A stretch of 64,000 bases of DNA from Siphonodentalium dalli. Its lineage: Eukaryota; Mollusca; Scaphopoda; Gadilida; Siphonodentaliidae. The notes beneath the pieces were generated by a model. That model was not told the origin of the DNA and did not search any database. It saw nothing but the letters and a program-made list of their open reading frames with translations. Location: positions 119,337,281 to 119,401,280 of the forward strand of contig CP136067.1 in assembly GCA_032622095.1 (NCBI GenBank). The letters are read 5' to 3'. Numbering within the stretch: position 1 is the first letter of the stretch; every line of letters starts with the position of its first letter. Below are positions 39,449 through 58,189 of the stretch, piece by piece. Position numbers and translations under genes: made by a program.

Positions 39449-40321
39449 TTAGGTTCTCTCAAATCGACCGGAATCTCTGATATACGAGTGTACGGCCTTT
39501 AAAATATCACTATTCTCAGTATATGTTAGTTCGGGTTTCCCATAAAGAAATATGTCTACAGAGTTAATATTATATTGCATGAGCTTATTGTTAAGTCTTA
39601 GACGAGATTCGGTATAATGGTTACATTCAAAGAAAAAATGATTAGCATTTTCTTCCCGGAAGCCACACGAGCATGTTGCGGAATCTGATATATGATTGTG
39701 TAATTTATCAGACTGTAGGCCACTACATTTACATCGAAGTTGCGTGTGAATAATATTAAAATAACGACTCCCATTTGTGAAATACAAAGGTGGCTTCAAC
39801 TTTGTACCCGCGTAGTACATATGTTTCAATTGCTTCACGAATTCATCATGGGCGAGATTACGAATTGTTAATTTAATGGAGTTCCATTCCTTTGTACAGG
39901 CAGGGATAAAAGTGGATTTTAACCTTGCCGCGTCACAGCGCATGATAATGAAATCAGAGGCGTATTTTGATTCTCGATCGGTCTTATCGATGAAACGTTC
40001 GGGCAAGATGGTGCGTAAGTAACGAGTTGCGTTATTATTTATTATCCTGTGAAGGGTGGATAACCGTTTAACGGTTCTTCTGTCCTCTAGACTATCCCAG
40101 CCAACCTCAGTCAATAATCTGGCATCTGATACGGAACGAGTGCAACCAGTCACGATTCTGGCTGCATCTAACTGAATATCATTAAGGTTTTTAAGGAGGT
40201 AATTCGGAGCGCCAAACCACACTGGGCTTGCATATTCGAGAAGTGGCCTCACATATGTCAAGTACATTGTTTCTAAAGTTTTTCTGCTTAGTATACATTT
40301 AAGTTTCCTTATTTGGGACAA
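39449..40321 (-). CDS. LINE ORF2 C-terminal part: thumb and CSCG...H...C domain
   Basis: 290 codons, open. It starts with SQIRKLKCILSRKTLETMYL and YVRPLLEYASPVWFGAP, the thumb directly after the RT palm. It continues with LQLDAARIVTG-like (IQLDAARIVTGCTRSVSD), YFTNGSRYFNIIHTQLR and ends with the knuckle CSCGFREENANHFFFEC and a tail (IRDSGRFERT). The ATG at 40321 is created by the deletion and is not a natural start; coding upstream (ANARL) is in the same frame. It is the same family as LINE copy A, which has CSCGHPCENANHFVFSC. Confidence 0.75.
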   Translation of the reverse strand: MSQIRKLKCILSRKTLETMYLTYVRPLLEYASPVWFGAPNYLLKNLNDIQLDAARIVTGCTRSVSDARLLTEVGWDSLEDRRTVKRLSTLHRIINNNATRYLRTILPERFIDKTDRESKYASDFIIMRCDAARLKSTFIPACTKEWNSIKLTIRNLAHDEFVKQLKHMYYAGTKLKPPLYFTNGSRYFNIIHTQLRCKCSGLQSDKLHNHISDSATCSCGFREENANHFFFECNHYTESRLRLNNKLMQYNINSVDIFLYGKPELTYTENSDILKAVHSYIRDSGRFERT

Positions 40322-40529
40322 TCTCGCATTAGCACGTTTACACGTGTTGTCAAGTTAATAACAAGTTATTTTCTTGTAAATGCTCTAGTAATTTATTATG
40401 GATAATTTTTTCTAATATTTTGCCGAGAACGCTCAGAAGTGAAACTGGCCTATAAGTATTAGGATCTTTTTGGTCACCTTTTTTGAAAAGAGGTATAACA
40501 TCCGCTTTTTTCCATTCATCTGGGAACTA

Positions 40530-42176
40530 TCAAAGGTCTATCGATTTCTGAAATAATATACTAAGTGGTTTGCATACAGTAGCATGTGTTTCTTTAAGCA
40601 TGCGATGACTAATACCATCTGACCCACAAGCTTTTTTCGTTGGTAGATCTTTCAAAATTTTAGAAATTTTAGACTCGCTAATCGGTATTTCAGTGATAAC
40701 TTCATCTGTCCGTTCATCAAAATTCGGCAAACATTTCGCTTTCATTCCTAATGAGCTGTTTGCAACAAAGATACTATTTAAAATTTCAGCTTTGTCTTTG
40801 TCATTGCAGTACATTTTGTTTGTATATGAGACAGGCGGGATTCCCTGGTTATAATTGTTACCCATAAATGTGTTTACAATATGCCAAAACTGTTTTGGGT
40901 TATTATTCATAACAAGAGATTCATCCAAGTGAGTCATATACTCATTTTTTGTGTGTTTCTTGGCATTATTCACTTGGTTTCGAGCTTTCTTATATTTCGA
41001 CCACGTGAAACTCGTATTACATTTTAGAGCGTTTCTTCTATAGCGATCGCGTTGACGGATTAGTCTTCTGACTGTGCTATCAAACCACGGTTTATCATTT
41101 CTACGTACCAATATATCTCGGCGTGGTATGAAGGATTCGGCCATCTTCAAAAACGTATATCTGAAATGCTCAACAGATTCGTTGATGTCAAAACAGTTTA
41201 CTTCATTATTAAGACATGCGGACCAGTTAGTTTCTTTTATTGCTCTATTTAAGCCTGTAAAGTCGGCATCAGAATAACTCCACACTATTCTTTTGTAGGC
41301 TTGTGTCACCCGGGGTGTCCTTTTTAGTTCGACAGACGTGGCATAGTGATCAGAAACTTCAAGGTCTACAGTGGAGGGGTTCATCGCTGTTAACGCTTCA
41401 GAGATAATTATTGGGTCTAAGAGCGTTTGTGACGTCGACGTTACTCGTGTTGGTTCTTTAATGACGTTAGACATGCCGACATATTTATTAATTATGGTCT
41501 GCAGTGGGTTATCCCGTACCAACATATTACAATTCAAGTCACTAACGACAACAACTGATGGGTTAATATCTAATGCTTCTCCAATTTTGTCATCAAGCAG
41601 TTCCCAGAAGTTATTTACATATTCCCTATCGGATCTATAAGTAACACATAGTAAAAACTTTTCTACAGACCCTACTTCAAACCAGAGTATGTCATCATTA
41701 AACTGCAAACCTGACATTTCTCTGTATGGAATTTTATCTGAAAAGTATACTATGATCCCCCCGCCGTACACATTTCGATCTTTACGTACAGGGTGTTGGA
41801 AACCTGATATAAGCAAGTTTTCATTTGGATAATGTTCATCAAGATGAGATTCAGTAAAGCATAGAATATCGTAATCATCGATAATATCTGATATCTTATG
41901 AATTTTGTTTCTTATGCTTCTTACGTTACAATGAATAATAGAGATTGAAGTGGTAGCTGTGGCGTCTAACTGATCTGGGTTCGGGTGTATATCCCCAGCT
42001 AGAGCAAGAAGAGTAAATGCTAGAAATGCCACTATTACATTATGAAAAGCTAGTAGACGCAAACGAGTTGGCTTATGGGTAGCATGATTATACATATTAC
42101 ATGAACAAGGTATGTGTTGATAAATGCCATGAAATATTCCAATTGTTAGCCTGTATTGAGCCACACTAACTCCCAT
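40530..42176 (-). CDS. LINE ORF2 N-terminal part: signal-like segment, degenerate 2A-like motif, AP endonuclease, start of RT
   Basis: 548 codons, open. Residues 41-60 form a hydrophobic stretch (LLAFHNVIVAFLAFTLLALA). It is followed at 61-69 by GDIHPNPDQ, the position where CR1-like LINEs of invertebrates carry a 2A-like DIHPNPGP motif; here the final G-P has become D-Q. The AP endonuclease runs from about 78 to 285: SIIHCNVRSIRNKI, FTESH (E109), GGGIIVYFSD, VVSDLNCN (212-215, the GDxN box with G changed to S), SDH (275-277). After a linker with WFDSTVRRLIRQRDRYRR, the RT begins at about 500 (KACGSDGISHRMLKE) and ends at LFQKSIDL before two stop codons (TGA TAG). Beyond these stops the same frame continues FPDEWKKADVIPLFKKGD. 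The endonuclease may still fold; no complete RT follows. Confidence 0.8.
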   Translation of the reverse strand: MGVSVAQYRLTIGIFHGIYQHIPCSCNMYNHATHKPTRLRLLAFHNVIVAFLAFTLLALAGDIHPNPDQLDATATTSISIIHCNVRSIRNKIHKISDIIDDYDILCFTESHLDEHYPNENLLISGFQHPVRKDRNVYGGGIIVYFSDKIPYREMSGLQFNDDILWFEVGSVEKFLLCVTYRSDREYVNNFWELLDDKIGEALDINPSVVVVSDLNCNMLVRDNPLQTIINKYVGMSNVIKEPTRVTSTSQTLLDPIIISEALTAMNPSTVDLEVSDHYATSVELKRTPRVTQAYKRIVWSYSDADFTGLNRAIKETNWSACLNNEVNCFDINESVEHFRYTFLKMAESFIPRRDILVRRNDKPWFDSTVRRLIRQRDRYRRNALKCNTSFTWSKYKKARNQVNNAKKHTKNEYMTHLDESLVMNNNPKQFWHIVNTFMGNNYNQGIPPVSYTNKMYCNDKDKAEILNSIFVANSSLGMKAKCLPNFDERTDEVITEIPISESKISKILKDLPTKKACGSDGISHRMLKETHATVCKPLSILFQKSIDL

Positions 42177-43170
42177 GACTAGATGTAGAGGAAGTCAACA
42201 AGGCACACGACAGGCCAACAGTAAAAATAATGACGTAGCTGCTTATATGTTTACATGAATGTTTCAGATAAGAGGTGTGAGATTCAGACAAAAAAAAGAG
42301 AGAAAATAACATTAAGTATGTAAAGTTATCCATTTTATAATGGAAATTACAAAAGTCTGCATAAATCTATAACTAATGTACAAATTTGGAGTGTATGCCT
42401 TTAGCAATTCATCCAAGCTCCAAAGACGCATATTTGATTTAGGTTCATGTAATGTGTGTATTTGAATGTGCCAAAAGACTGCATCAAAGACCGTTGGCAT
42501 GTTACATGTACGCGATATACATCTAGCTCAAACTCGTGAATATTGTGCGGAATTATTAGCGGATTACCAGACACTGTTGACCGATACAAATCGAGCGTCG
42601 ATCGGGACATGAACTGTGCGGGCACAGCGAAGGTCTATGAATTGTCTCGTTTATTGCTTTGAATAATTCGGCCTGTTGTGTACGCCGGGAACACGATCGT
42701 ATCAATCTCTCTTGTTAGTGTTCTGGTCAGTGGGTCAACTGCCGGGTTATAGTATTTCGGGAAGGGGAACGATTGAGAATTGTACGCTCGTGGAAAGCAA
42801 GATAGACGCGAAAATAGGTCAGGTTCTTCGCGTACATGACTATTTGGCAGTCATTTATCTGAAATTGGATGTGCGTATCGTCATATATATATATAAACAA
42901 CCATAACTTACGTGTACAAATGTACATGCACAAAATTGAGAGTTGGAAGGTTGGATTAATAATGTGTATGGTGAGTTACCTTCATAATTTTCGACGCTGT
43001 TCGCAGTATAACAATTCCGTTCGCTTTATGATATTTATTCAGATAGTGATTCAAAGTTTATAACATACCAGTTGACTTTAGCGCTTGGTTAATCTAGATG
43101 TGATCTTTGTTACTAGATATATCTGATATATGTAGTTGAAATGTTAGATACGTATTTAAGCAGGGATGTG
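42177..43170. other. Probable LINE 5' region, then intergenic
   Basis: The first part may be the 5' UTR of LINE copy B; its 5' limit cannot be set from one copy. No gene is recognised further on. Confidence 0.35.
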
Positions 43171-47559: not shown

Positions 47560-48255
47560 TATTTGGTTATGGCCAATCAATTACAAGTTATTTGCATCGG
47601 ACTCTCTTCGTTAACAATCAGTTAAACTGAGTTTCGGGACTATCTGCTGAACTGTTCCCGACTAAGTGCTGAACGGGTTATTTAACTGTTGAACTGGCAT
47701 CGTGGTCGGTCAAATTGTGTTCCCCCATTATATTTGGTCATTATCGACCGATAACATGCCATTTACATAACCTATATCCGACTACATTCATTACAAATCA
47801 GTTAAACTGCGTTTGGGACCATCTGCTGGCTGTGCCCAATGAAGTGCTGAACGGGGTTTTGAACTGTTGAAGTGGGATGTAGATCGATAACATGGTTTCC
47901 GCTCACTGTATTTGGTTATGGCCCATTGATTATAAGTCATATGTATATCCGATAGTCGAATATCTGCGTTAAAAGTCGGTTAAACTGCATTCGGGTCAAT
48001 TTCGGGTCTAACGTATCTGCTGATCTGTTCCCAGTGAAGTGCTGAACGGGTTTTTGAACTGTAGAACTGGGACTGCGATCGGTCAAATGGTGTTCGGTTA
48101 CTGTGTTTGGTTATGGCACATCCGTTACAGGTTCTAAACCTACACCGACGATCTTCGTTACAAATCGGTTAAACAGGCTGCTTTCGGAACTATACCGTAT
48201 CTGCTGATCTGTTCCCAATGAAGTATTGAGCGGGTTTTTGAACTATTGAACTAGT
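47560..48255. repeat. Four tandem diverged units of about 160-190 bp
   Basis: CGTTACAAATCGGTTAAAC, CTGCTGATCTGTTCCCA, AGTGCTGAACGGGTTTTTGA and GTTTGGTTATGGC recur four times. Non-coding. It lies directly 3' of the HtrL-like exon. Confidence 0.75.
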
Positions 48256-48476
48256 CGGAGGGAATTCTTCTCAAAGCTAATATGACATGTGAATTTGGGG
48301 GTGATCGAGTTCGCCAATTTTGCTGGAAATACCCGCGATAAATATAGAAAGCACAGACTGATGCCCAGCCGGTGACAAAGTCAAAAAGGAGGTATGCCTG
48401 GTACAGATTAGCCATATCCACTGACCACCAAGTTGAGATGTGACAATTGCTATATGTTTCGAAGCATAACGGCTGA

Positions 48477-49406
48477 TCATTGCACCTTCGTTTTGTTCAT
48501 GGAACTGAAAGTGACATTTCTTGGTGCATGCAGCCTGTTCAAACATATATTTCCTAAGTGAAACCAGCCACCTTTGTATGGCTGTAATTTGACACTCATG
48601 TTATATTTCAGAGAACTTTTAACGTTCATCCCGTATATAATTTGTTGGCCGGTACTCATCAAATTGTTCTCGAGGAATATATAGAACATTCGTTTGTATT
48701 GGTTCACAAAATTCAACATGACCTCTTTTCTGGCAAGGGCTGCCCCAGAAGCAACATAAACGTGGTTTCCAGAAACAATTTGTGACAAAGATACATTTCT
48801 GTTCACTTCATATACAGCACTAAATGCCACACGCGTTGCATCGAGGTCGTCTGGAACACGCAACGCAAACAATCCGCTTCCGCTAGACATTGACGGATCT
48901 CGAAAATATCCGATGTCAAGCCACATCACGTGATCTGTTGCTACGAGACCATTTTCTATCGTCTGCTTCAGCAGATGCCATCGAGCACTTACTGCGCATG
49001 CGTAATCCGGATTCACTGTGTTTGGTAAATGTTTCGGATAACCGGGTGTTTTGAATATCTTTTCAATCTCGGGCCTGTGTTGAAATGGCCATACTTCTCT
49101 TCTCAGTTTTCTGTCAAGGAGTATCACATGAACATATTCGTTATCTCCGGTGAAATGCTTAAACATATTATAGTAGTTTATATCGTCGAAATATGCCACC
49201 AAAGGAGTCCTTATACCCCGGTATGATCGCATCCATACTTTATAGTCGTTCGTCTTGCGAATATTCGAAGTAGATCCCTTTGAAAAATTTCCAATGTTGA
49301 TATACGCCGTTACCATGGTAATTGTGCGATTTGTCCCATATAGCAACTGGACTTCCGGTGCTGTTCGGATGTTCTGTTTAACTACGTGAATCATATATCT
49401 GTGAAA
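48477..49406 (-). CDS. HtrL/YibB-domain protein, terminal exon
   Basis: The only convincing host gene piece in the window. The exon codes for about 309 residues. Relative to the ATG at 49394, VTAYINIGNF lies at 28-37, TPLVAYFDD at 63-71, VMWLDIGYFRD at 156-166, a stretch around STGQQIIYGM at 247-256 and GGWFHLGN at 275-282. These are the blocks of the HtrL/YibB family, known from enterobacterial LPS-core regions and from nematodes and molluscs. The fold resembles a glycosyltransferase, but the reaction is not established. Coding continues in frame upstream of the ATG for FHRY to a good 3' splice site, so this is probably the last exon of a longer gene whose earlier exon (perhaps a membrane anchor) I cannot find. 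N-x-S/T sites (NRT, NVS, NMS, NVT) fit a secretory-pathway protein. No stop or frameshift. Confidence 0.75.
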   Translation of the reverse strand, partial: FHRYMIHVVKQNIRTAPEVQLLYGTNRTITMVTAYINIGNFSKGSTSNIRKTNDYKVWMRSYRGIRTPLVAYFDDINYYNMFKHFTGDNEYVHVILLDRKLRREVWPFQHRPEIEKIFKTPGYPKHLPNTVNPDYACAVSARWHLLKQTIENGLVATDHVMWLDIGYFRDPSMSSGSGLFALRVPDDLDATRVAFSAVYEVNRNVSLSQIVSGNHVYVASGAALARKEVMLNFVNQYKRMFYIFLENNLMSTGQQIIYGMNVKSSLKYNMSVKLQPYKGGWFHLGNICLNRLHAPRNVTFSSMNKTKVQ

Positions 49407-49428
49407 CTGGAACGAGAATAACAGGGGT
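49407..49428 (-). other. 3' splice site of the HtrL-like exon
   Basis: On the minus strand a pyrimidine-rich run (CCCCTGTTATTCTCGTTCC) ends in AG directly before the exon, at 49407. A second AG eight bases into the exon (CACAG) is a weaker alternative. The frame before the ATG is open, which favours a spliced origin. Confidence 0.6.
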
Positions 49429-50184
49429 GCATGTATATCTATACAGAAACATAGTCAAACCTCGGTAAATTTATGGGGTTTATCGTAAATCTACTAGCCG
49501 ATAGGCCATGTCACAAAGTTATTAGTTTAATATTTCATTTTGTTCAAGAAAGACCACAGTAAGAAAATTTCACTGACACATCACTACACTGCAAACATAT
49601 GAACCACTGAGCCACAGATCCAGTTGCCATAACGTCCAGTTGTCATAGCAACGACCTGATAGGTGTTCAATCGATTTGACTTTAAACATATTTTATTTTT
49701 ATACTAAACATGATACAAAATGGATTGGGGACAAGTTACAGAAACTTACTTAGCCTCTCCCGATGCAAGTTAAGGATGTACTACATAACATAATATTTAC
49801 ATAGTCCGCCTGTGTTCAACTAAATCGTGGTCGGTGATTGGTCAACTACAAATTGGGCCACCCGTGTCGTATCCCAGTAATAAACAGACACACAATAATA
49901 ACACACAGACAGTAACACGAACACGGTCACAAATTGTTGATATAATCTGACCTATTCACGAAAAGCGGTGAGCAGACTAACAGGGCGTGCTTTTCAAAAT
50001 TCAGCCGATTTGTATCTTAAACCAGTTATGTATATCGATGACGTTATCGTTTCTAAGTGCTTGGAACTCCTATATTGGGCTGACCTAATGTGCTGTGTTG
50101 GCTAGTCTCAAAATTTCGGCAGATTTTGTGCAAATAAGTAAGAATAATCTCAGCTTTTGTATGGGAATAAACCATCAATAAGCT

Positions 50185-50283
50185 ATATAAATATAAGAAA
50201 TGAATGTAGTGGATGTGCGTGAGGGTGTGTGTGTGTGTAAAACACCCACACCAACTATATACATTCATTTCTAAAATAACAGC
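50185..50283. repeat. Foldback with GT tract
   Basis: AGAAATGAATGTAGT is mirrored by ACTATATACATTCATTTCT about 70 bp later. The loop contains a GTGTGTGTGTGT run and the complementary ACACCCACACC. Confidence 0.6.
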
Positions 50284-50930
50284 ACTCTCCATGCTCAATT
50301 AAAACGGCATAGAAATAGCCGGCAACCAAAGCTGGCAAAATTATAATTTGCCACATGCTTTATACAAGTCATACACATATCAAATCATTAAAACAATTAC
50401 AGCATTATCCGTGCTCCAGCGGCATAAATAGAGTCGTATAACCACATTGGCAAAATAATAAATTACCTCTTGCTTTATCATGTACATTATTTTTTATTAA
50501 CTTTGCTCAAAAGATGGATAGGGGTAAACGCTGGCAAAATTATAATTTGCCACGTGCTTTATACAAGTTATACACATACCACATCATTAACACAAAAACA
50601 ACACTATCCGTGCTCAATTAAAACGGCATAACATAACCGTCAACCAAAGCTGACAAAAGTATAATTTGCCATATGCTTTATACAATTTTATACACATATT
50701 ACATTCTTAACACAATAACAACACTCTCCGTGCTCAATTATATGGCATAGCCGCAAATCAACACTGATAAAATTATAATTTGCCTTGTGTTTTATATTAC
50801 ATCCTTAACACAATAACAATACTCTCCGTGCTCAATCGGCATAAACAGAGTCGTATAACCACACTGGAAAAATTATAAATTACCTCTTACTTTATTGTGT
50901 ACATTATTGTTTAATAACTTTGCTTCAAGA
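50283..50930. repeat. Tandem array of about five diverged 110-190 bp units
   Basis: Recurring words: CGTGCTCAATTAAAACGGCAT, CTGGCAAAATTATAATTTGCC, ATGCTTTATACAAGT, TTATACACATA, and in two units GAGTCGTATAACCACA with AAATTACCTCTTGCTTTAT. Two unit types alternate. Non-coding. Confidence 0.75.
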
Positions 50931-51094
50931 TGTAGATCTTAAAAAATTAAATTACATTATCACGAACGTCACAATCATGATTTCAAAACCGTGAATTATA
51001 ATGACAAGCAATATGTCTAAAATAAAACATCACTGATGAAACAAATACCCATATTGACAGCATTAATACAGCCTTGCCTTGTTCATTTTTAGAA

Positions 51095-52372
51095 ATAAGT
51101 CAGTTCAGGTAAAATAAGTGGTTCAAGTAATTTCAAAATATTTATTTTGTGGTCAAGGTATAGATGTTTGAAGTTTGAAAATATTTGTTCTGCAATATTT
51201 AAGGTTAAATAAATAGTTCCAAGGTTTTGCAGGTGTATCTACATGCATGGTTAATTGGTATTCTGTGCTCTAAATAGTTTCGGATTTTGACTCGAAATGA
51301 TATATATCTATGTACATGTATAGTCATTTGTTGTTTTGTGTTATCCAGGTTAAAAGGGTCTCACAGAGACATACGCGAATCATGTGCAGGTGATAAGCGG
51401 TTGTTGATAAAATTATCCATGATTTGAATGTGGTCAAGTTTCGAACTATCCTATAGTTGGTCAGGGTTGACAAGCCGGTTATTATTGTTTTGGTTGAGAA
51501 TGCTCTCGAAATGATTGTGGACTTTGTTACACAACGAGTGTTATAAGACTCGACGAAAGGTTTATTAGGGCTGGCTTATTGTTCAGTTTTATAAAAAAGT
51601 CAGTTCAAGTGAAATAAGTGGTTCAAGTAATTTCAAGATAAATAATTTGAGGTCAAGGTATGGATGTTTGAAGTTTGAAAATATTTGTTATGGAACATTT
51701 CAGGTTAGACAAATTGTTCCAGTGGTTTGCAGGTATATCTACATGCATGGTTAATTTGTATTCTGTGTTACAAGACGCTCGAAATTGTTTCAAATTTTGA
51801 TTCGAAATGATATATATCTATGTACATGTATAGTCAATTGTGTTTTTTTTGTTATTCAAGTTAAAAGGGTCTCAGAGACAATTGCAAACCATGTGCAGGT
51901 TATATGCGGTTGAGAGGATGTTGATAAAAGTCTCCATGATTTGAATGGGGTCATGTTTCGAACTAACCTAAAGTTGATCAGTGTTGACAATTCGGTTATT
52001 ACTGACGATGTAGTTAACAAGTCACGATGTCAGGGTTGACAAGTCGACTATTACTGTTTTGGTTGTGAATGCTCTCGAAATGATTGTGGACATTTGTTAC
52101 ACAATAAGTGTTATTTGACTCAACAAAAGGTTTATTAGGGCTTACTTAATTTTTAGAAATGAGTCACTTCAGGTAAAATAAGTGGTTCAAGTAATCTCAA
52201 AATAAAACAAATTGTGGTCAAGGTATAGATGTTTGAAGTTTCAAAATATTTGTTATGGAATATTTCAGGTTAGACAAATAGTTCCAAGGTTTTGCAGGTA
52301 TGTCTACATGCATGGTTAGTTGGTATTCTGTGTTACGACACGCTCGAAATAGTTTCAAATTTTGATTCAAAA

Positions 52373-52390
<18 letters not shown>
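51095..52390. repeat. Tandem array of about 500-564 bp units (third unit interrupted)
   Basis: Units begin near 51101, 51601 and 52165 with CAGTTCAGGTAAAATAAGTG-like sequence. The second unit is longer by about 60 bp because of an internal duplication (GTCAGGGTTGACAAGTCG). The third unit is broken at its ATATATAT stretch by the element 52422-53470 and continues at 53475-53610. Non-coding. Confidence 0.85.

Positions 52391-52424
<34 letters not shown>
52374..52424. repeat. (AT)n microsatellite
   Basis: About 25 AT dinucleotides, grown from the GATATATATCTATG found at the same place in units one and two of the surrounding array. Confidence 0.95.
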
Positions 52425-52428
<4 letters not shown>

Positions 52429-52494
52429 TTAGAAAGAACATATGTGCAGATAGATATATAGACTGTAAATAAGTAAACATGGTCCGAATAATTT

Positions 52495-52567
52495 GTTGCA
52501 GATGAACTTTATTTCGCTAGGCCTTTCAACGCTTGTATGCGCGTATCTTCAGGCGATTGTTCACAAC
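52495..52567 (-). ncRNA. Type I hammerhead ribozyme motif, monomer 1
   Basis: Minus strand, 5' to 3': GUUG, UGAAC, AA, UCGC (5' side of stem I); core CUGAAGA (fits CUGANGA); stem II ACGC with GCGU around loop GCAUACAA, its base a U-U mismatch; GAA; stem III AGGCCU, self-complementary; A17; then GCGA, AAUAAA, GUUCA, UCUG, CAAC (3' side of stem I). The stem I helices UCGC/GCGA, UGAAC/GUUCA and GUUG/CAAC all pair. Predicted cut after CUA, between 52518 and 52517. The U-U at 10.1/11.1 departs from the usual G-C, so activity may be reduced. A tiny palindromic stem III is typical of hammerheads that act as dimers in tandem transcripts. Confidence 0.7.
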
Positions 52568-52933
52568 GTATGGCATCAGCAGTCTCTTCAGTGTTTGTAC
52601 ATCGATGAAGAACTTTTTTCCTGGTATTGAACACCACGATATGTTCATGGTCCATCTTGTCGAGGTTTACCTTTGGCTATTGTGACGTCTCCTCTGTAGC
52701 GAAGTGACGTTGCACCCAAATTCGTACTTTGGTAGAGCGTTCCATTTAAGCACAGGTAAAGTTCCTCAATGGAAAAAAAGAGTTCTCTTCTGTGTGATGA
52801 TCACTGTTAGCTGGTTTTCGCCGAACTTCTGTCCATGTTTGTCGTACACATAGATAAATATATAGACTTAGAAAGAACATATGTGCAGATAGATATATAG
52901 ACTGTAAATAAGTAAACATGGTCCGAAGAATTT

Positions 52934-53006
52934 GTTGCAGATGAACTTTATTTCGCTAGGCCTTTCAACGCTTGTATGCGCGTATCTTCAGGCGATTGTT
53001 CACAAC
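52934..53006 (-). ncRNA. Type I hammerhead ribozyme motif, monomer 2
   Basis: Same sequence as the motif at 52495-52567, 439 bases further on. Predicted cut between 52957 and 52956, so cleavage at both motifs would release a 439-nt RNA. Confidence 0.7.
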
Positions 53007-53351
53007 GTATGGCATCAGTCTCTTCAGTGTTTGTACATCGATGAAGAACTTTTTTCCTGGTATTGAACACCACGATATGTTCATGGTCCATCTTGTCGAG
53101 GTTTACCTTTGGCTATTGTGACGTCTCCTCTGTAGCGAAGTGACGTTGCTCCCAAATTCGTACTTTGGTAGAGCGTTCCATTTAAGCACAGGTAAAGTTC
53201 CTCAATGGAAAAAAAGAGTTCTCTTCTGTGTGATGATCACTGTTAGCTGGTTTTCGCCGAACTTCTGTCCATGTTTGTCGTACACATAGATGAATATATA
53301 GACTTAGAAAGAATGTACGATGTACAAACACTGAAGAGACTGATGCCATAC

Positions 53352-53424
53352 GTTGTGAACAATCGCCTGAAGATACGCGCATACAGGCGTTGAAAGGCCT
53401 AGCGAAATAAAGTTCATCTGCAAC
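53352..53424 (+). ncRNA. Type I hammerhead ribozyme motif, inverted copy
   Basis: Same fold on the plus strand. The only change is in loop 2 (GCATACAG instead of GCATACAA). Core, stems I, II and III and the CUA triplet are kept. Predicted cut after 53401. Confidence 0.7.
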
Positions 53425-53609
53425 AAATTCTTCGGACCATGTTTACTTATTTACAGTCTATATATATATATATGTACATGTATTGTCATGGGTTCCTCGT
53501 GATTCGAATGTGGTCAGGTTTCGAACTAACCTAAAGTTGATCAGGGTTGACAATTCGGTTATTACTGATTTTGTATTTAACAAGTTAGGATGTCCTGGTT
53601 CCCATGACG

Positions 53610-54012
53610 AAAGAAACTCAGTATTCTAACATGTCATATGGTATATGCGTATATATATATGCTCCATGGCAGGTTTCTCAAAAGTAATCACACGAAAAGA
53701 TGTATAGAAAAGTGTGCAATAATAAAATCTATTATGAGTTTTCCTTGAGTGTCTGCGAGCGAGACGACACAGGCAATCCATAATAGAATATAATAGCCAG
53801 ATTCTAGCTTATCATAAATTATAACAAAATTTGATCTGATTATTGGAGCTAAGACTATGAGATATTATATTTTCCTCATCACAGCCATATCGACCAGCCA
53901 ATACACACACGAGAAACCTTTATTTAATCACCATAGTATCATAAAGTTAGAGGAGAAATGATCGGACAAGTATAATTATCGATGGTAATTAATCAAAAAT
54001 ATAAATTTCGCA
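53610..54012. other. Intergenic, no gene recognised
   Basis: AT-rich sequence without open frames of note. Confidence 0.4.
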
Positions 54013-54024
54013 TGGGATGTGCGC

Positions 54025-54173
54025 AAGGCTTGAAATAGTGTGTCTGTCATTTGCAGAATGAGGTCCCCAGAGGCTGAATTTGGTGATGCTAGCCCGCTAT
54101 GCGGGGTAGCATAACTAAATTCACCCTCTGGGAACCTCATTCTGCAAATGACAGGCTCACTGTTTCAAGGCTT
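54025..54173. mobile_element. Foldback MITE with 9-bp target duplication
   Basis: The arms of about 72 bases (AAGGCTTGAAATAGTG... and its inverse) pair over their length with roughly ten mismatches around TATG. GGATGTGCG flanks it at 54015-54023 and 54174-54182. A 9-bp duplication suggests a Mutator-type source (hAT would give 8). Non-coding. Confidence 0.8.
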
Positions 54174-54182
54174 GGATGTGCG

Positions 54183-55140
54183 ATGAGAGTAGGGTCACTG
54201 GCTGGATAACAGCGATGGCTATTGACAGAAATTATCTCGGCTATTGTAAAATTAAATTAACTCTTGAGTTAATGCTAAGTTAATTTTGTCCCGGTGTCAG
54301 GCTAAATTTAATGCATGTCGGACAATAACGGAAATTTGGCGTGCTAGTGGAGTCGACTGACATGAATAAATCATGTCTTAGTTAATGACAATTGTCAATA
54401 ATCTACAATGAGTTTCTTTGTTGCTTTCAGATTCTGAGGTCGCGTTAGATAATTAGTTTGATTGAAGTTAGAAATTAATTTAAAACCTTCATGTTCAACG
54501 GTGAAATGTATTAGTTAGTGATAACAATGGTTGGTTTGTTTTTTCTCTATATATAAGGCAGTCATACATGGGAAAGAAAGTGTCATAGATATTCTGGGAG
54601 AGAAAATGTCAGATATTTAGTGATTCAGTAATTGAAATTTTGATTTTCGAAAAGGAAGGCGGTTGCCATTTACATTACATCATGATAGTAAAAACATCGT
54701 GTATACATTTTAAAATAAAGTGTATTTGAATTCATGTTCAAACTTGTGGTTTTAATTGCGATGTGTAGGGGTGCATGTGTGTCCCGCTGTGAACCAGTTA
54801 ATAAACAATTTGTTCCAGAAGAAGTTCCAGAGATGTGGTGGCATGTACGAACATAAAACCGGAACTGGTCGGAAGTTAATCCTTATATTGGATTGTCCAA
54901 GATGTGGCCATCAAAGTTAGAGCCTAAAATTAGTGGTGGATGATATTTATACCTGCATCAATGGAATTGACCTCAGGACGACGGGAAGTATATGTCGGAT
55001 ATGCATCACCCAAATACTGGAGTTACAACGGCAATCTCAGTGGACGAGATATCCAGTGCTAGGTAGAGAACAGTTTATACCACGATCGCCTATCTTACTA
55101 TATAAATAAAGCCATACCCGTTAATTAAACGTGCCTACTG
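54183..55140. other. Intergenic, no gene recognised
   Basis: No domain or repeat supported; short frames only. Confidence 0.4.
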
Positions 55141-55146
55141 TTGATT

Positions 55147-55316
55147 AAACTTCGCAGAGTGGATTAAACTTTCTCCATACAATTTGAACGGAAAAGTGTT
55201 TATCCATCGGATTGTAAAGATCGTGGCATAAACTTCGCAGAGTGGATTAAACTTTCTCCATACAATTTGAACGGAAACGTGTTTATCGATCGCATTGTAA
55301 AGATCGTGGCATAAAC
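55147..55316. repeat. 83-bp tandem duplication next to a hairpin element
   Basis: AAACTTCGCAGAGTGGATTA starts at 55147 and 55230. The two copies differ at a few positions (AAAAGTG against AAACGTG; CCATCGG against CGATCGC). Each contains GTTTAT...ATAAAC in inverted orientation. Confidence 0.9.
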
Positions 55317-55319
55317 AAA

Positions 55320-55459
55320 ATATACGCACAGTGTTTCTGAATAACAAATTTAATCCACTCGTGGGATTGGCGATTTACACCACTCGGTGAAGCTCGTGGT
55401 GTAAATCTCCAATCCAAATCGTGGATTAAATTTGTTATTCAGAAACACTATGCGTATAT
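55320..55459. mobile_element. Large hairpin (possible MITE), 140 bp
   Basis: ATATACGCACAGTGTTTCTG at the left is mirrored by CAGAAACACTATGCGTATAT at the right. Inner parts pair too (CAAATTTAATCCAC, GATTTACACCAC), with a loop CTCGGTGAAG. The right arm lacks a few bases. No target duplication is visible. Confidence 0.7.
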
Positions 55460-55964
55460 TCTATATTTAAATTGTTCATTGTCGGAGATGTCGCCATGAT
55501 CTGCATATATAAATATGCATGTCTTTGGAATTATTGGAATGCCACTTAGTGGCCATAATATATATGGTATCCAGACGAATAAGATTGATGAAACAATATA
55601 CACTATTATTTGTCATCAGGACCAGTACAGCTGTTTGTAAAAAATATATAGTCAACACAACGTGAAGTCATGATATGAAGTCATTCTAAACTGGACAGTT
55701 GTATCATTACAGAATCGTCAAGTTTTTGTCATCTGATAAAAACCTTGGCAAAAGATATGGGAGTCATCTGACACACTGAGATGTGTCCCTGTGCACTTCT
55801 GATCACATAAGCGCAGGTCACATCGATGACAATAAACGCCAGATGGGGATCGGACAATCAGATCACCAGAGGATGCTCTAGGAATGAGTTTGTGACGGTG
55901 TGGCTTCGTTAAAAGATGCGACTCTTTTCCGCTCCCCACCAGCTTAACCAACATGCTGGTGGTA

Positions 55965-56090
55965 TGCGACGATTGTGATTGATATATTACATAGTCTTAA
56001 ATGTTGTAGTTAATGTAAAAAAAATTCTCATCATGTTAATTCGACGGAGCCTGATTTTCCCTCACACATATACCCTCGTGGTCAGAGTGG
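55965..56090. other. Spacer before the minisatellite
   Basis: No gene; the reading frame at 55718-55954 on the minus strand shows no recognisable domain. Confidence 0.35.
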
Positions 56091-56092
56091 TA

Positions 56093-57030
56093 TATATTGA
56101 CCTTATATTCTGAACAAGCTGACACTCGGTATTATTGGCCTTATATTCTGAGCAAGCTGATTCCCCATATTATTGGCCTTATATTCTGAGCAAGCTGATT
56201 CCCCATATTATTGGCCTTATATTCTGAGCAAGCTGATTCCCCATATTATTGGCTTTCTATTCAGAACAAGCTGATTCCCCATATTATTGGCCTTATATTC
56301 TGAGCAAGCTGATTCTCCATATTATTGGCCTTATAATCCGAACAGATTGATTCCCATATTATTGGCCTTATATTCCGAACAGATTGATTCCCATATTGTT
56401 GGCCCTATATTTAGAACAAGCTGATTCCCCATATTATTGTCCTTATATTCTGAACAAACTGATTCCCCATATTATTGGCCTTATATTCAGAACAAGCTGA
56501 TTCCCCATATTATTGGCCTTATATTCAGAACAAGCTGATTCCCCATATTATTGGCTTTCTATTCCGAACAAGCTGATTTTCCATATTATTGGCTTTCTAT
56601 TCCGAACAAGCTGATTCCCCATATATTGACTTTCTATTCAGAACAAGCTGACTTCCCATATTATTGGCTTTATATTCTGAACAAGCTGATTTTCCATATT
56701 ATTGGCTATCTATTCTGAACAAGCTGATTCCCCATATATTGGCTTTCTATTCAGAACAAGCTGATTTCCCATATTATTGGCCTTATATTCTGAGCAAGCT
56801 GATTTTCCATATCATTGGCCATATATTCCGAACAGGCTGATTCTCCATATTATTGACCTTATATTCCGAACAAGCTGATTCTCCATATTATTGGCCATAT
56901 AATCCGAACAGATTGATTCCCATATTATTGGCCTTATATTCCGAACAGATTGATTCCCATATTGTTGGCCCTATATTTAGAACAAGCTGATTCCCCATAT
57001 TATTGTCCTTATATTCTGAACAAACTGATT
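56093..57030. repeat. 38-bp minisatellite, about 24 units, with a higher-order repeat
   Basis: The unit has CCTTATATTCTGAGCAAGCT then GATTCCCCATATTATTGG, and starts at 56101, 56139, 56177 and 56215 among others. Variants (GGCTTTCTATTC, AATCCGAACAGATTG) are ordered. A run of about 130 bases (ATAATCCGAACAGATTG through TATTTAGAACAAGCTG to GAACAAACTGATT) occurs at about 56331-56462 and again at about 56908-57030, so the array also grew by copying multi-unit blocks. Confidence 0.95.
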
Positions 57031-57039
57031 TAGTTCAGG

Positions 57040-57600
57040 AGCCAGGAGGGTTTTAATTACACTATCGTGCAAGGAAGGTTTGATGCTCTCGATTTGTTGG
57101 CGGTAATAGACCATTATGGAAAACCAATTTCTTAAGTTGCGCATTCCTGGCGTTTAGGGGCCAGATTGCCCCCAAAAATGACTTTTAATAACACTATCGC
57201 GCAAGTCCACCAGCTTTACATCGAATACGCTATTATGTTCACTGATCATAAAAAAATATTTTAAGAATGGAATTTCCTGGCGTTTTCAAATAAGAAGGGG
57301 TCTTTTGATGGACCCCAAATTGTTTCAATTTCACTTTTTATTCACAATCACGCAAGTCCACCATTTTTCCTGAAATAGTCTATTGTGTTTACTGATCATA
57401 AAAACACAACTTAAGAACGGAATTTTCCTGGCGTTTTCTTTATAAGAATGGGTCTTTCAGTGGTACTCCCCCCTAAATAATTTCAGCTATACAATCGCAC
57501 ACTAACAATGGACATCGTAATTTGGCACGATGTTTGTCGCATGTTTGGGCATTCAGAAAACATGTCTTAATTATAATAATAATGAAAATGGTTTTTCGAG
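57040..57600. repeat. Three or four diverged 125-130 bp tandem units
   Basis: Recurring words: ACTATCGCGCAAGTCCACCA, TGTTTACTGATCATAAAAAC, TTAAGAACGGAATTTTCCTG, GCGTTTTC...AAGAAGGGGTC. Old array directly after the 38-bp minisatellite. Confidence 0.7.
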
Positions 57601-58189
57601 ATAAGAAGGGATCCCGTCGAGTATTAAAGAAGGCCTTTATTAATTCGCATGCTTATGTATATAAAATATTTTACAGACAACAATCGGTTGGTGAATGAAT
57701 CGAAATTGTTATACAGCAATCGAGTATCCCAGATGAATGAAAACAACAAGATGTAATGCATATCGATTGGTAAGTACATAAATCCTCTTTACATGTCCCG
57801 AAAGAGGAAGCCGATCAAATTAGTCAAAATACTAACGCACATACACGACATAATGTATAACATAACTTCCGGTTAAACGAAAGAGCTTCTGCACAATTTA
57901 ATATTCGCACAAAATATGTTATCTGGTAACTATTCCATCGCAAATTAAACCCCTTGTTCAATTTTCAATTTGGTTCGTATCTTAGGTCATCGAAATAGCC
58001 CCATTACTTCTATGATAACCGGATGGGCAATCATGGAAAGCTGAAAGAGCGCGCACGTCCTTTTGCTGCAAAATCTACGGAAAGTCGACTCATTCCAAAT
58101 TATTAATTTTTGTTTTAATAAAGAATTTTTATAATGTGTGTTTCCTTTAATTCTAAATCCCTATATGATGGTATCGAAACGTGAGCGAT

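Follow-up and report, generated by a model that had tools for sequence, protein, structure and literature searches.

Penelope-like elements (PLEs) reportedly carry a minimal hammerhead ribozyme (HHR) within their terminal repeats (pLTRs), as is said to have been described by Lunse et al. in 2017 and by Cervera and de la Pena in 2014. The ends of PLE insertions have been assigned to two reverse-transcription start sites with a tail of 30-40 bp between them (accessible portion of PMC11167929). For the A. vaga PLE, the available part of PMC3846280 describes direct pLTRs with an adjacent inverted pLTR, and a pLTR that spans the first 12 codons, or 22 with the tail. The origin of retrozymes by reduction of Penelope elements has already been proposed (excerpt of PMC11722881), as has Penelope-driven mobilisation of retrozymes (excerpts of PMC7229834 and PMC7761336), and the excerpt of PMC6685494 refers to butterfly Penelope elements that are short and non-autonomous. 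Judged by title and the beginning of the abstract, none of the literature matches listed reports a graded Penelope-to-retrozyme series within one genome. The genome considered here makes these Penelope proposals on the origin and the movers of animal retrozymes testable, because it contains retrozyme-like arrays together with tandem GIY-YIG/PLE frames and with possible intermediates that have a hammerhead of the same type.

Repeat units and hammerheads in the window

The window, the whole stretch of DNA that was analysed, comprises 64 kb (C7:119337281-119401280); the genome to which it belongs measures 2.23 Gb and is assembled in 9 contigs. It contains an insertion at 52426-53458 with (TA)n on its flanks, placed at a GATATATATCTATGTACATG-type site within a diverged tandem repeat of period ~500-565 bp. 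TRF reported 52411-53313 as a repeat of period 436 with 2.1 copies and 98% matches, and a repeat search resolved two direct units that agree at 99% over 300 bp (spacing 436) and at 97% over 174 bp (spacing 439). Their HHRs lie on the minus strand, which corrects the preliminary description. Unit 1 occupies 52869-53304 (436 bp, minus strand), with 9 more homologous bases up to 53313, and unit 2, the 3'-most in the HHR sense, occupies 52430-52868 (439 bp, minus strand); one 3-bp indel accounts for the whole difference in length. An inverted partial copy on the plus strand (53318-53469) follows head-to-head in a PLE-like manner, is 99% complementary to 52889-53040, lacks the 35-bp tail described below and passes into (TA)n after 53458. 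The units have a low GC content (0.40), their longest sense ATG ORF is 57 aa, and no RT + GIY-YIG ORF was found in them. The repeat searches and the three hammerheads detected thus uphold the initial picture of two direct repeats and an inverted fragment with an HHR in each.

An unoccupied copy of the flanking repeat at 51808 reads GATATATATCTATGTACATG; in the occupied copy, the insert sits between GATATAT and ATATATGTACATG. The region ~47900-57800 of the window is duplicated ~0.77 Mb away, at ~120.16 Mb (L044, G000:C7:120155000-120164000), with flanks that agree at 98.7% over >4 kb and 96.9% over >3 kb. The insert of this duplicate consists of the inverted fragment only (~120 bp), joined at the 5-base AGACT. 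Since AGACT borders the missing part on either side, a deletion between the two AGACT is the simplest explanation. A 325-aa ORF of the window (48477-49454, minus strand; Pfam HtrL_YibB, E 2.7e-13), for which only 2 related proteins were found, also occurs in the duplicate. Elsewhere, the window contains LINE-like ORFs at 39449-42194 (minus strand; endonuclease domain, E 8.7e-7, in the frame 40533-42194), a long hairpin at 54024-54174 (arms of 74 bp, 88% complementary, spacer 3 bp) and a minisatellite at 56095-57030 (38-bp unit, ~25 copies).

In each copy, the HHR reads, in its own sense, UCGC-CUGAAGA-U-ACGC-loop-GCGU-U-GAAAGGCCUA|GCGA, with U.U where stem II is normally closed by a base pair. 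A hammerhead descriptor returned exactly 3 matches in the 64 kb, one per copy (minus 52991, minus 52552 and plus 53367). The motifs extend over 52953-52995 in unit 1 and 52514-52556 in unit 2, both on the minus strand, and over 53363-53405 on the plus strand in the inverted copy; in unit 2, a possible outer stem I would span about 52503-52564 (minus strand). On 30 Markov-simulated windows, the descriptor gave 0 strict matches and loose matches in 4, a generous test because the descriptor was composed after the motif had been seen. Cleavage is predicted at CUA|GCGA, at 52518|52517 and 52957|52956 in the direct units (439 apart) and at 53401|53402 on the plus strand; the first of these positions is the one proposed earlier. 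The claim of one HHR per copy held in 3 of 3 cases, but not that of a self-contained three-way pairing: stem III (AGGCCU) has no loop and could pair only between two HHRs. From this loop-less stem III it follows that the active form should be a dimeric (double) hammerhead.

Folding predictions were made for both forms. The best fold of the isolated 59-nt HHRs was not a hammerhead and was no better than that of shuffles (z -1.08 and -0.45). The double-hammerhead dimer of the window was predicted at -33.1 kcal/mol, against a cofold MFE of -33.6 kcal/mol; the dimer of family 2 (defined below) was predicted at -24.3, i.e. 4 kcal/mol above the cofold optimum of -28.5. Predicted circular folds of the units had 57-58% of bases paired, with an MFE that did not stand out from those of 60 shuffles per unit (z -0.79 and -1.48), and hence the highly self-paired circular RNA characteristic of retrozymes was not recovered among these folds, which were no more stable than shuffles.

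A covariance-model match, which the preliminary description had suggested looking for, did not appear: Rfam hammerhead families gave no match in the window at the gathering threshold and none in 52300-53600 at E<=10. Rfam at E<=1 likewise found no hammerhead in five further loci (L055, L058, L062, L064 and L065); in four of these, an HHR lies next to a PLE or GIY-YIG frame. We therefore rejected the silence of Rfam as a refutation, since Rfam overlooks the Penelope HHRs of this genome just as well. Rfam misses this kind of hammerhead: it gave none in the window or in the five loci, against 294 pattern matches in the genome.

Genome-wide copies and hammerhead families

These 294 exact matches were obtained with the HHR pattern CTGAAGATN{8,20}TGAAAGSSCTA across the 2.23 Gb, and the reversed-pattern control gave 0. 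Core and U.U are prescribed by this pattern and stem II pairing is left free; stem I was compared in the fetched loci. Stem III was GGCC or GCGC in all 100 matches listed, though GCCC and GGGC were also allowed. Among the same 100, 56 HHRs belong to one minus-strand array at C3:274634764-274668374, where many steps measure 434-441 bp; with these the 100 end, and the array may be longer. Another array, of family 2, lies at C4:131.21 Mb (L055; 11 HHRs, steps of 435-473), and a family-2 query revealed more runs on C9 at ~437-bp steps; tandem copies elsewhere in the genome, whose counting had been suggested at the outset, are accordingly present. A search with the unit itself gave at least 37 matches, with very common words skipped and the C3 array absent from them. 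Dispersed single and truncated copies occur alongside dimers and long arrays. One element fragment (L040, 5893-6657, plus strand) lies inside an open frame that runs on for ~200 codons and is followed by a REJ/PKD-domain frame; zinc-finger-like frames were also seen, and together with the LINE and REJ/PKD frames they suggest that the genome is that of an animal. Three pattern searches of viral contigs yielded 0, 1 and 0 stretches, L001 having no CTGANGA in the 177 bases before its match, and two pattern searches of genome contigs for relatives elsewhere yielded 0 and 7 (bacterial) matches.

A parser run over the fetched loci identified 32 HHRs (25 in an earlier parse, before L058-L068 were fetched); the 32 omit HHRs in which stem I has fewer than 3 pairs, such as that of the L064 inverted end, and the parser does not match the HHR type of L058, L059 and L062. 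Because MAFFT placed stem II wrongly between families, scripts were used to compare the stems of each copy individually. Four families were distinguished. Family 1, that of the window, has stem I UCGC/GCGA, stem II ACGC/GCGU and stem III AGGCCU; family 2 has AAGC/GCUU, GCAA/UUGC and AGCGCU at the same places. Stem III is again AGGCCU in family 3, with stem I UGUAAC/GUUACA and stem II CAGC/GCUG, and in family 4, with stem I (A)AAC/GUU(U) and stem II CGGC/GCCG. The core CUGAAGA was unchanged in all 25 HHRs of the earlier parse, the basal U.U of stem II was constant in 32 of 32, and stem III was a loop-less 6-nt palindrome (AGGCCT or AGCGCT) in 28 of 32. A broken pair was found in stem II of 6 of the 13 family-2 HHRs. 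Families 1 and 2 also possess an outer stem I helix with an internal loop; this helix differs between them, and that of family 1 was equalled in 473 of 5000 shuffles. Across the four families the core stays the same and substitutions in stems I and II come in matching pairs, from which we conclude that the hammerhead is real and under structural constraint. A chance motif was ruled out by the covariation together with the genome-wide pattern control (294 against 0).

Insertion ends and neighbouring GIY-YIG frames

Twelve independent family-1 3' ends were distinguished, by our own count over the fetched loci rather than as a census of the genome, with duplicate loci counted once (the window and L044; L042 and L043; L046, L047 and L057). 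Five of these ends lie at site 1, ACA[AG]TC|TA (window right, L039 right, L040 left, L042/43 and L068), and four at site 2, AAGTC|TA, which is 35 bp further on (window left, L039 left, L041 and L046/47/57); the other three are at different positions (two in L040, one in L045). Both the window and L039 combine one end of each site type with a head-to-head copy. In the window, a 35-bp tail on the minus strand (52426-52460) separates site 1, which follows 52461, from site 2, which follows 52426; at the end of this tail TRF found an (AT)n run (52375-52425). Family 4 has both no-tail and tail ends, 37 bp apart, with a different tail. Predicted tail folds differ between families, and a conserved tail hairpin is not claimed. 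Most family-1 ends fall in (TA)n. L041 is a single truncated copy that ends at site 2 and lies between two TATACAAATACATATAT (17 bp); its target consists of more than (TA)n alone. We read this pair as a target duplication; the automatic duplication check of the locus returned another 18-mer, not abutting the insert, in surroundings rich in simple repeats. An ATG at 52478-52480 (minus strand; GGACCATGTTTA), located 20 nt before the site 1 end and kept in families 1 and 2, is a candidate vestige of the PLE ORF start, and CCATGYTT is present in families 1, 2 and 3 and absent from the family-4 pieces. The inverted head, the 3' ends spaced by 35 bp and the (TA)n targets are recognisable in these sequences as PLE hallmarks.

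A search of the genome for GIY-YIG domains gave at least 146 matches from the 150 candidates that were scored out of 796, and many of these matches are tandem open frames of 670-820 aa at 4.4-4.9-kb steps; arrays of such frames are located, for example, at C5:66869267-66882835 and C1:118763839-118777947 (G000). The single long frame that was checked (L063) contains both RT and GIY-YIG. Clear PLE hammerheads, with a 7-bp stem I and a loop-less palindromic stem III (ACGCGU or ACGU), were found in two of five inter-ORF regions. The remaining three had no HHR at the thresholds used: L060 and L061, seemingly one family, show none, and in L059 a weaker hammerhead with a 3-bp stem I was discerned by eye. 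BLAST of the five regions against family 1/2 units detected no meaningful similarity, the N-terminal frames next to the L058, L061 and L062 regions had no Pfam match, and both GACGTCACAAT and CCATGYTT were absent from the two intact-PLE pieces examined.

HHRs of families 3 and 4 were found beside GIY-YIG frames, in one of the two loci examined for each. L064 contains a GIY-YIG frame at 651-1202 (E 2.5e-5) and, ~110 bp downstream at 1312 on the same strand, a family-3 HHR; the minus strand of L065 contains a GIY-YIG frame at 246-560 (E 2.3e-7) and then a family-4 HHR. Both loci are head-to-head inverted pairs. Of the second loci, L066 (family 3) is cut short ahead of any GIY-YIG frame, and L067 (family 4) contains a frame end similar to that of L065. 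The GIY-YIG copies beside these HHRs are themselves truncated; RT was not detected in the one further L065 frame tested, which matched no Pfam family. The motif GACGTCACAAT, which families 3 and 4 have in common with the window, occurs upstream of the HHR in unit 2 (52679-52689, minus strand) and was read off the sequence in unit 1 (53115-53125, minus strand). Tallied without a chance control, it precedes the HHR in the window and L039 (family 1), at both L064 ends (family 3) and in 3 of 3 family-4 pieces; it is absent from the L066 piece and from the family-2 unit examined, and other family-2 units read GACGTAACAAT. Outside the HHR, families 1/2 and 3/4 have only short motifs in common. No autonomous PLE that is intact and has the HHR or the tail of the window units was found. 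L048-L054, considered as an autonomous partner, were rejected as copies of one repeat with no HHR by the descriptor. This repeat, of which there are six near-identical copies of at least 8.6 kb (on C2, C3, C6, C6, C8 and C9; L051 is partial), contains a diverged Penelope-tail-like fragment.

Interpretation and comparison with known systems

We consider it likely that the locus derives from the terminal repeat of a PLE, reduced to a tandem unit that lacks ORFs and resembles a retrozyme; the units are read in this way because most sequence features of retrozymes and the features of pLTRs are both found in them. Their mobilisation is probably accomplished by PLE enzymes. Weighing against this reading are the restriction of the similarity between families 1/2 and 3/4 outside the HHR to short motifs, the three of 12 ends at other positions, the U.U in stem II and the less favourable predicted dimer of family 2. 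The insertion would then be a non-autonomous PLE left with its pLTR, comprising a putative promoter region, a dimeric minimal hammerhead and a reverse-transcription start region. A multi-unit transcript in the HHR sense (the minus strand of the window) would be cut between units by the double hammerhead, with the AGGCCU palindrome of one unit pairing with that of the next, and the released units may circularise. The PLE reverse transcriptase/GIY-YIG endonuclease would nick (TA)-rich DNA, the cDNA would start at either of two sites 35 nt apart, and a second, inverted partial copy would join head-to-head. The chances seem to us evenly balanced that this genome keeps a Penelope-to-retrozyme transition, in related hammerhead families that range from the GIY-YIG-attached families 3 and 4 to the ORF-less, arrayed families 1 and 2, such that animal retrozymes, at least here, would be reduced pLTRs still mobilised by Penelope enzymes at the two tail sites.

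The two recurrent ends might instead have arisen by recombination between TATATA and (TA)n microsatellites rather than at PLE start sites, an explanation that concerns one line of evidence and is compatible with the other readings. Within the unit, TATATA occurs only at the two end sites, so TA microhomology alone could produce both ends, and the prevalence of ends in (TA)n agrees with this. We nevertheless regard it as rather doubtful: the spacing of the ends equals the published PLE tail, L041 ends at site 2 though its target is mixed in sequence, and the pattern recurs in family 4, whose tail is a different one of 37 bp. Spread of the units as satellite DNA, by unequal crossing-over or rolling-circle DNA amplification with the HHR as a roleless relic, would account for long uniform arrays such as that at C3:274.63-274.67 Mb with its many spacings of 434-441 bp. 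It is very improbable in view of the compensatory changes that keep the HHR pairs across families, and of dispersed single or truncated copies, including L041 with its 17-bp flanking repeat.

An independent metazoan retrozyme, not descended from PLEs and endowed with its own dimeric type I HHR, RNA circles and a borrowed PLE/LINE reverse transcriptase, is suggested by the unit size, the low GC, the lack of ORFs and the range from dimers to long arrays, and the intact-PLE regions examined indeed share no extended similarity with the units. The head-to-head inverted copies and tail-spaced ends argue against it, as does the occurrence of GACGTCACAAT and of the AGGCCU/U.U HHR in copies adjoining GIY-YIG frames, and we find it unlikely. 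The preliminary designation of the locus as a metazoan retrozyme is hence retained in part. A type I HHR in every copy, ORF-less low-GC tandem units, dimers to arrays and compensatory HHR changes agree with it; the HHR is not of the classical cis-acting kind with capped stem III, and the designation alone leaves the Penelope ends, the (TA)n targets, the inverted head and the GIY-YIG link unexplained.

Compared with the metazoan non-LTR retrozymes of Cervera and de la Pena (2020), as presented in the accessible text of PMC7229834, the units are alike in being short, ORF-less and tandem with one type I HHR each, in their low GC and in their range from dimers to long arrays; they agree with the tandem units of 150-450 bp, GC below 45-50% and lack of LTR or ORF given there. 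The axolotl retrozyme described in the same text also has a dimeric HHR, with a palindromic tetraloop and a U.U mismatch. The expressed RNAs reported there measure ~170-400 nt, in contrast to the 436/439-bp units found here, and the window units differ further in carrying PLE-type ends, inverted heads and motifs common to GIY-YIG-bearing copies. Plant LTR retrozymes are similar as non-autonomous repeats with hammerheads and a proposed circular RNA intermediate, whereas the excerpt of PMC7229834 ascribes to them type III HHRs, LTRs and a size of 600-800 nt. With PLEs, as far as the accessible portions of PMC11167929 and PMC3846280 describe them, the locus shares an HHR without capped stem III, direct and inverted terminal repeats, an optional tail of 30-40 bp, AT-rich targets and an HHR near a start codon; unlike PLEs, the window units contain no RT/endonuclease ORF, and units adjoin directly in arrays.
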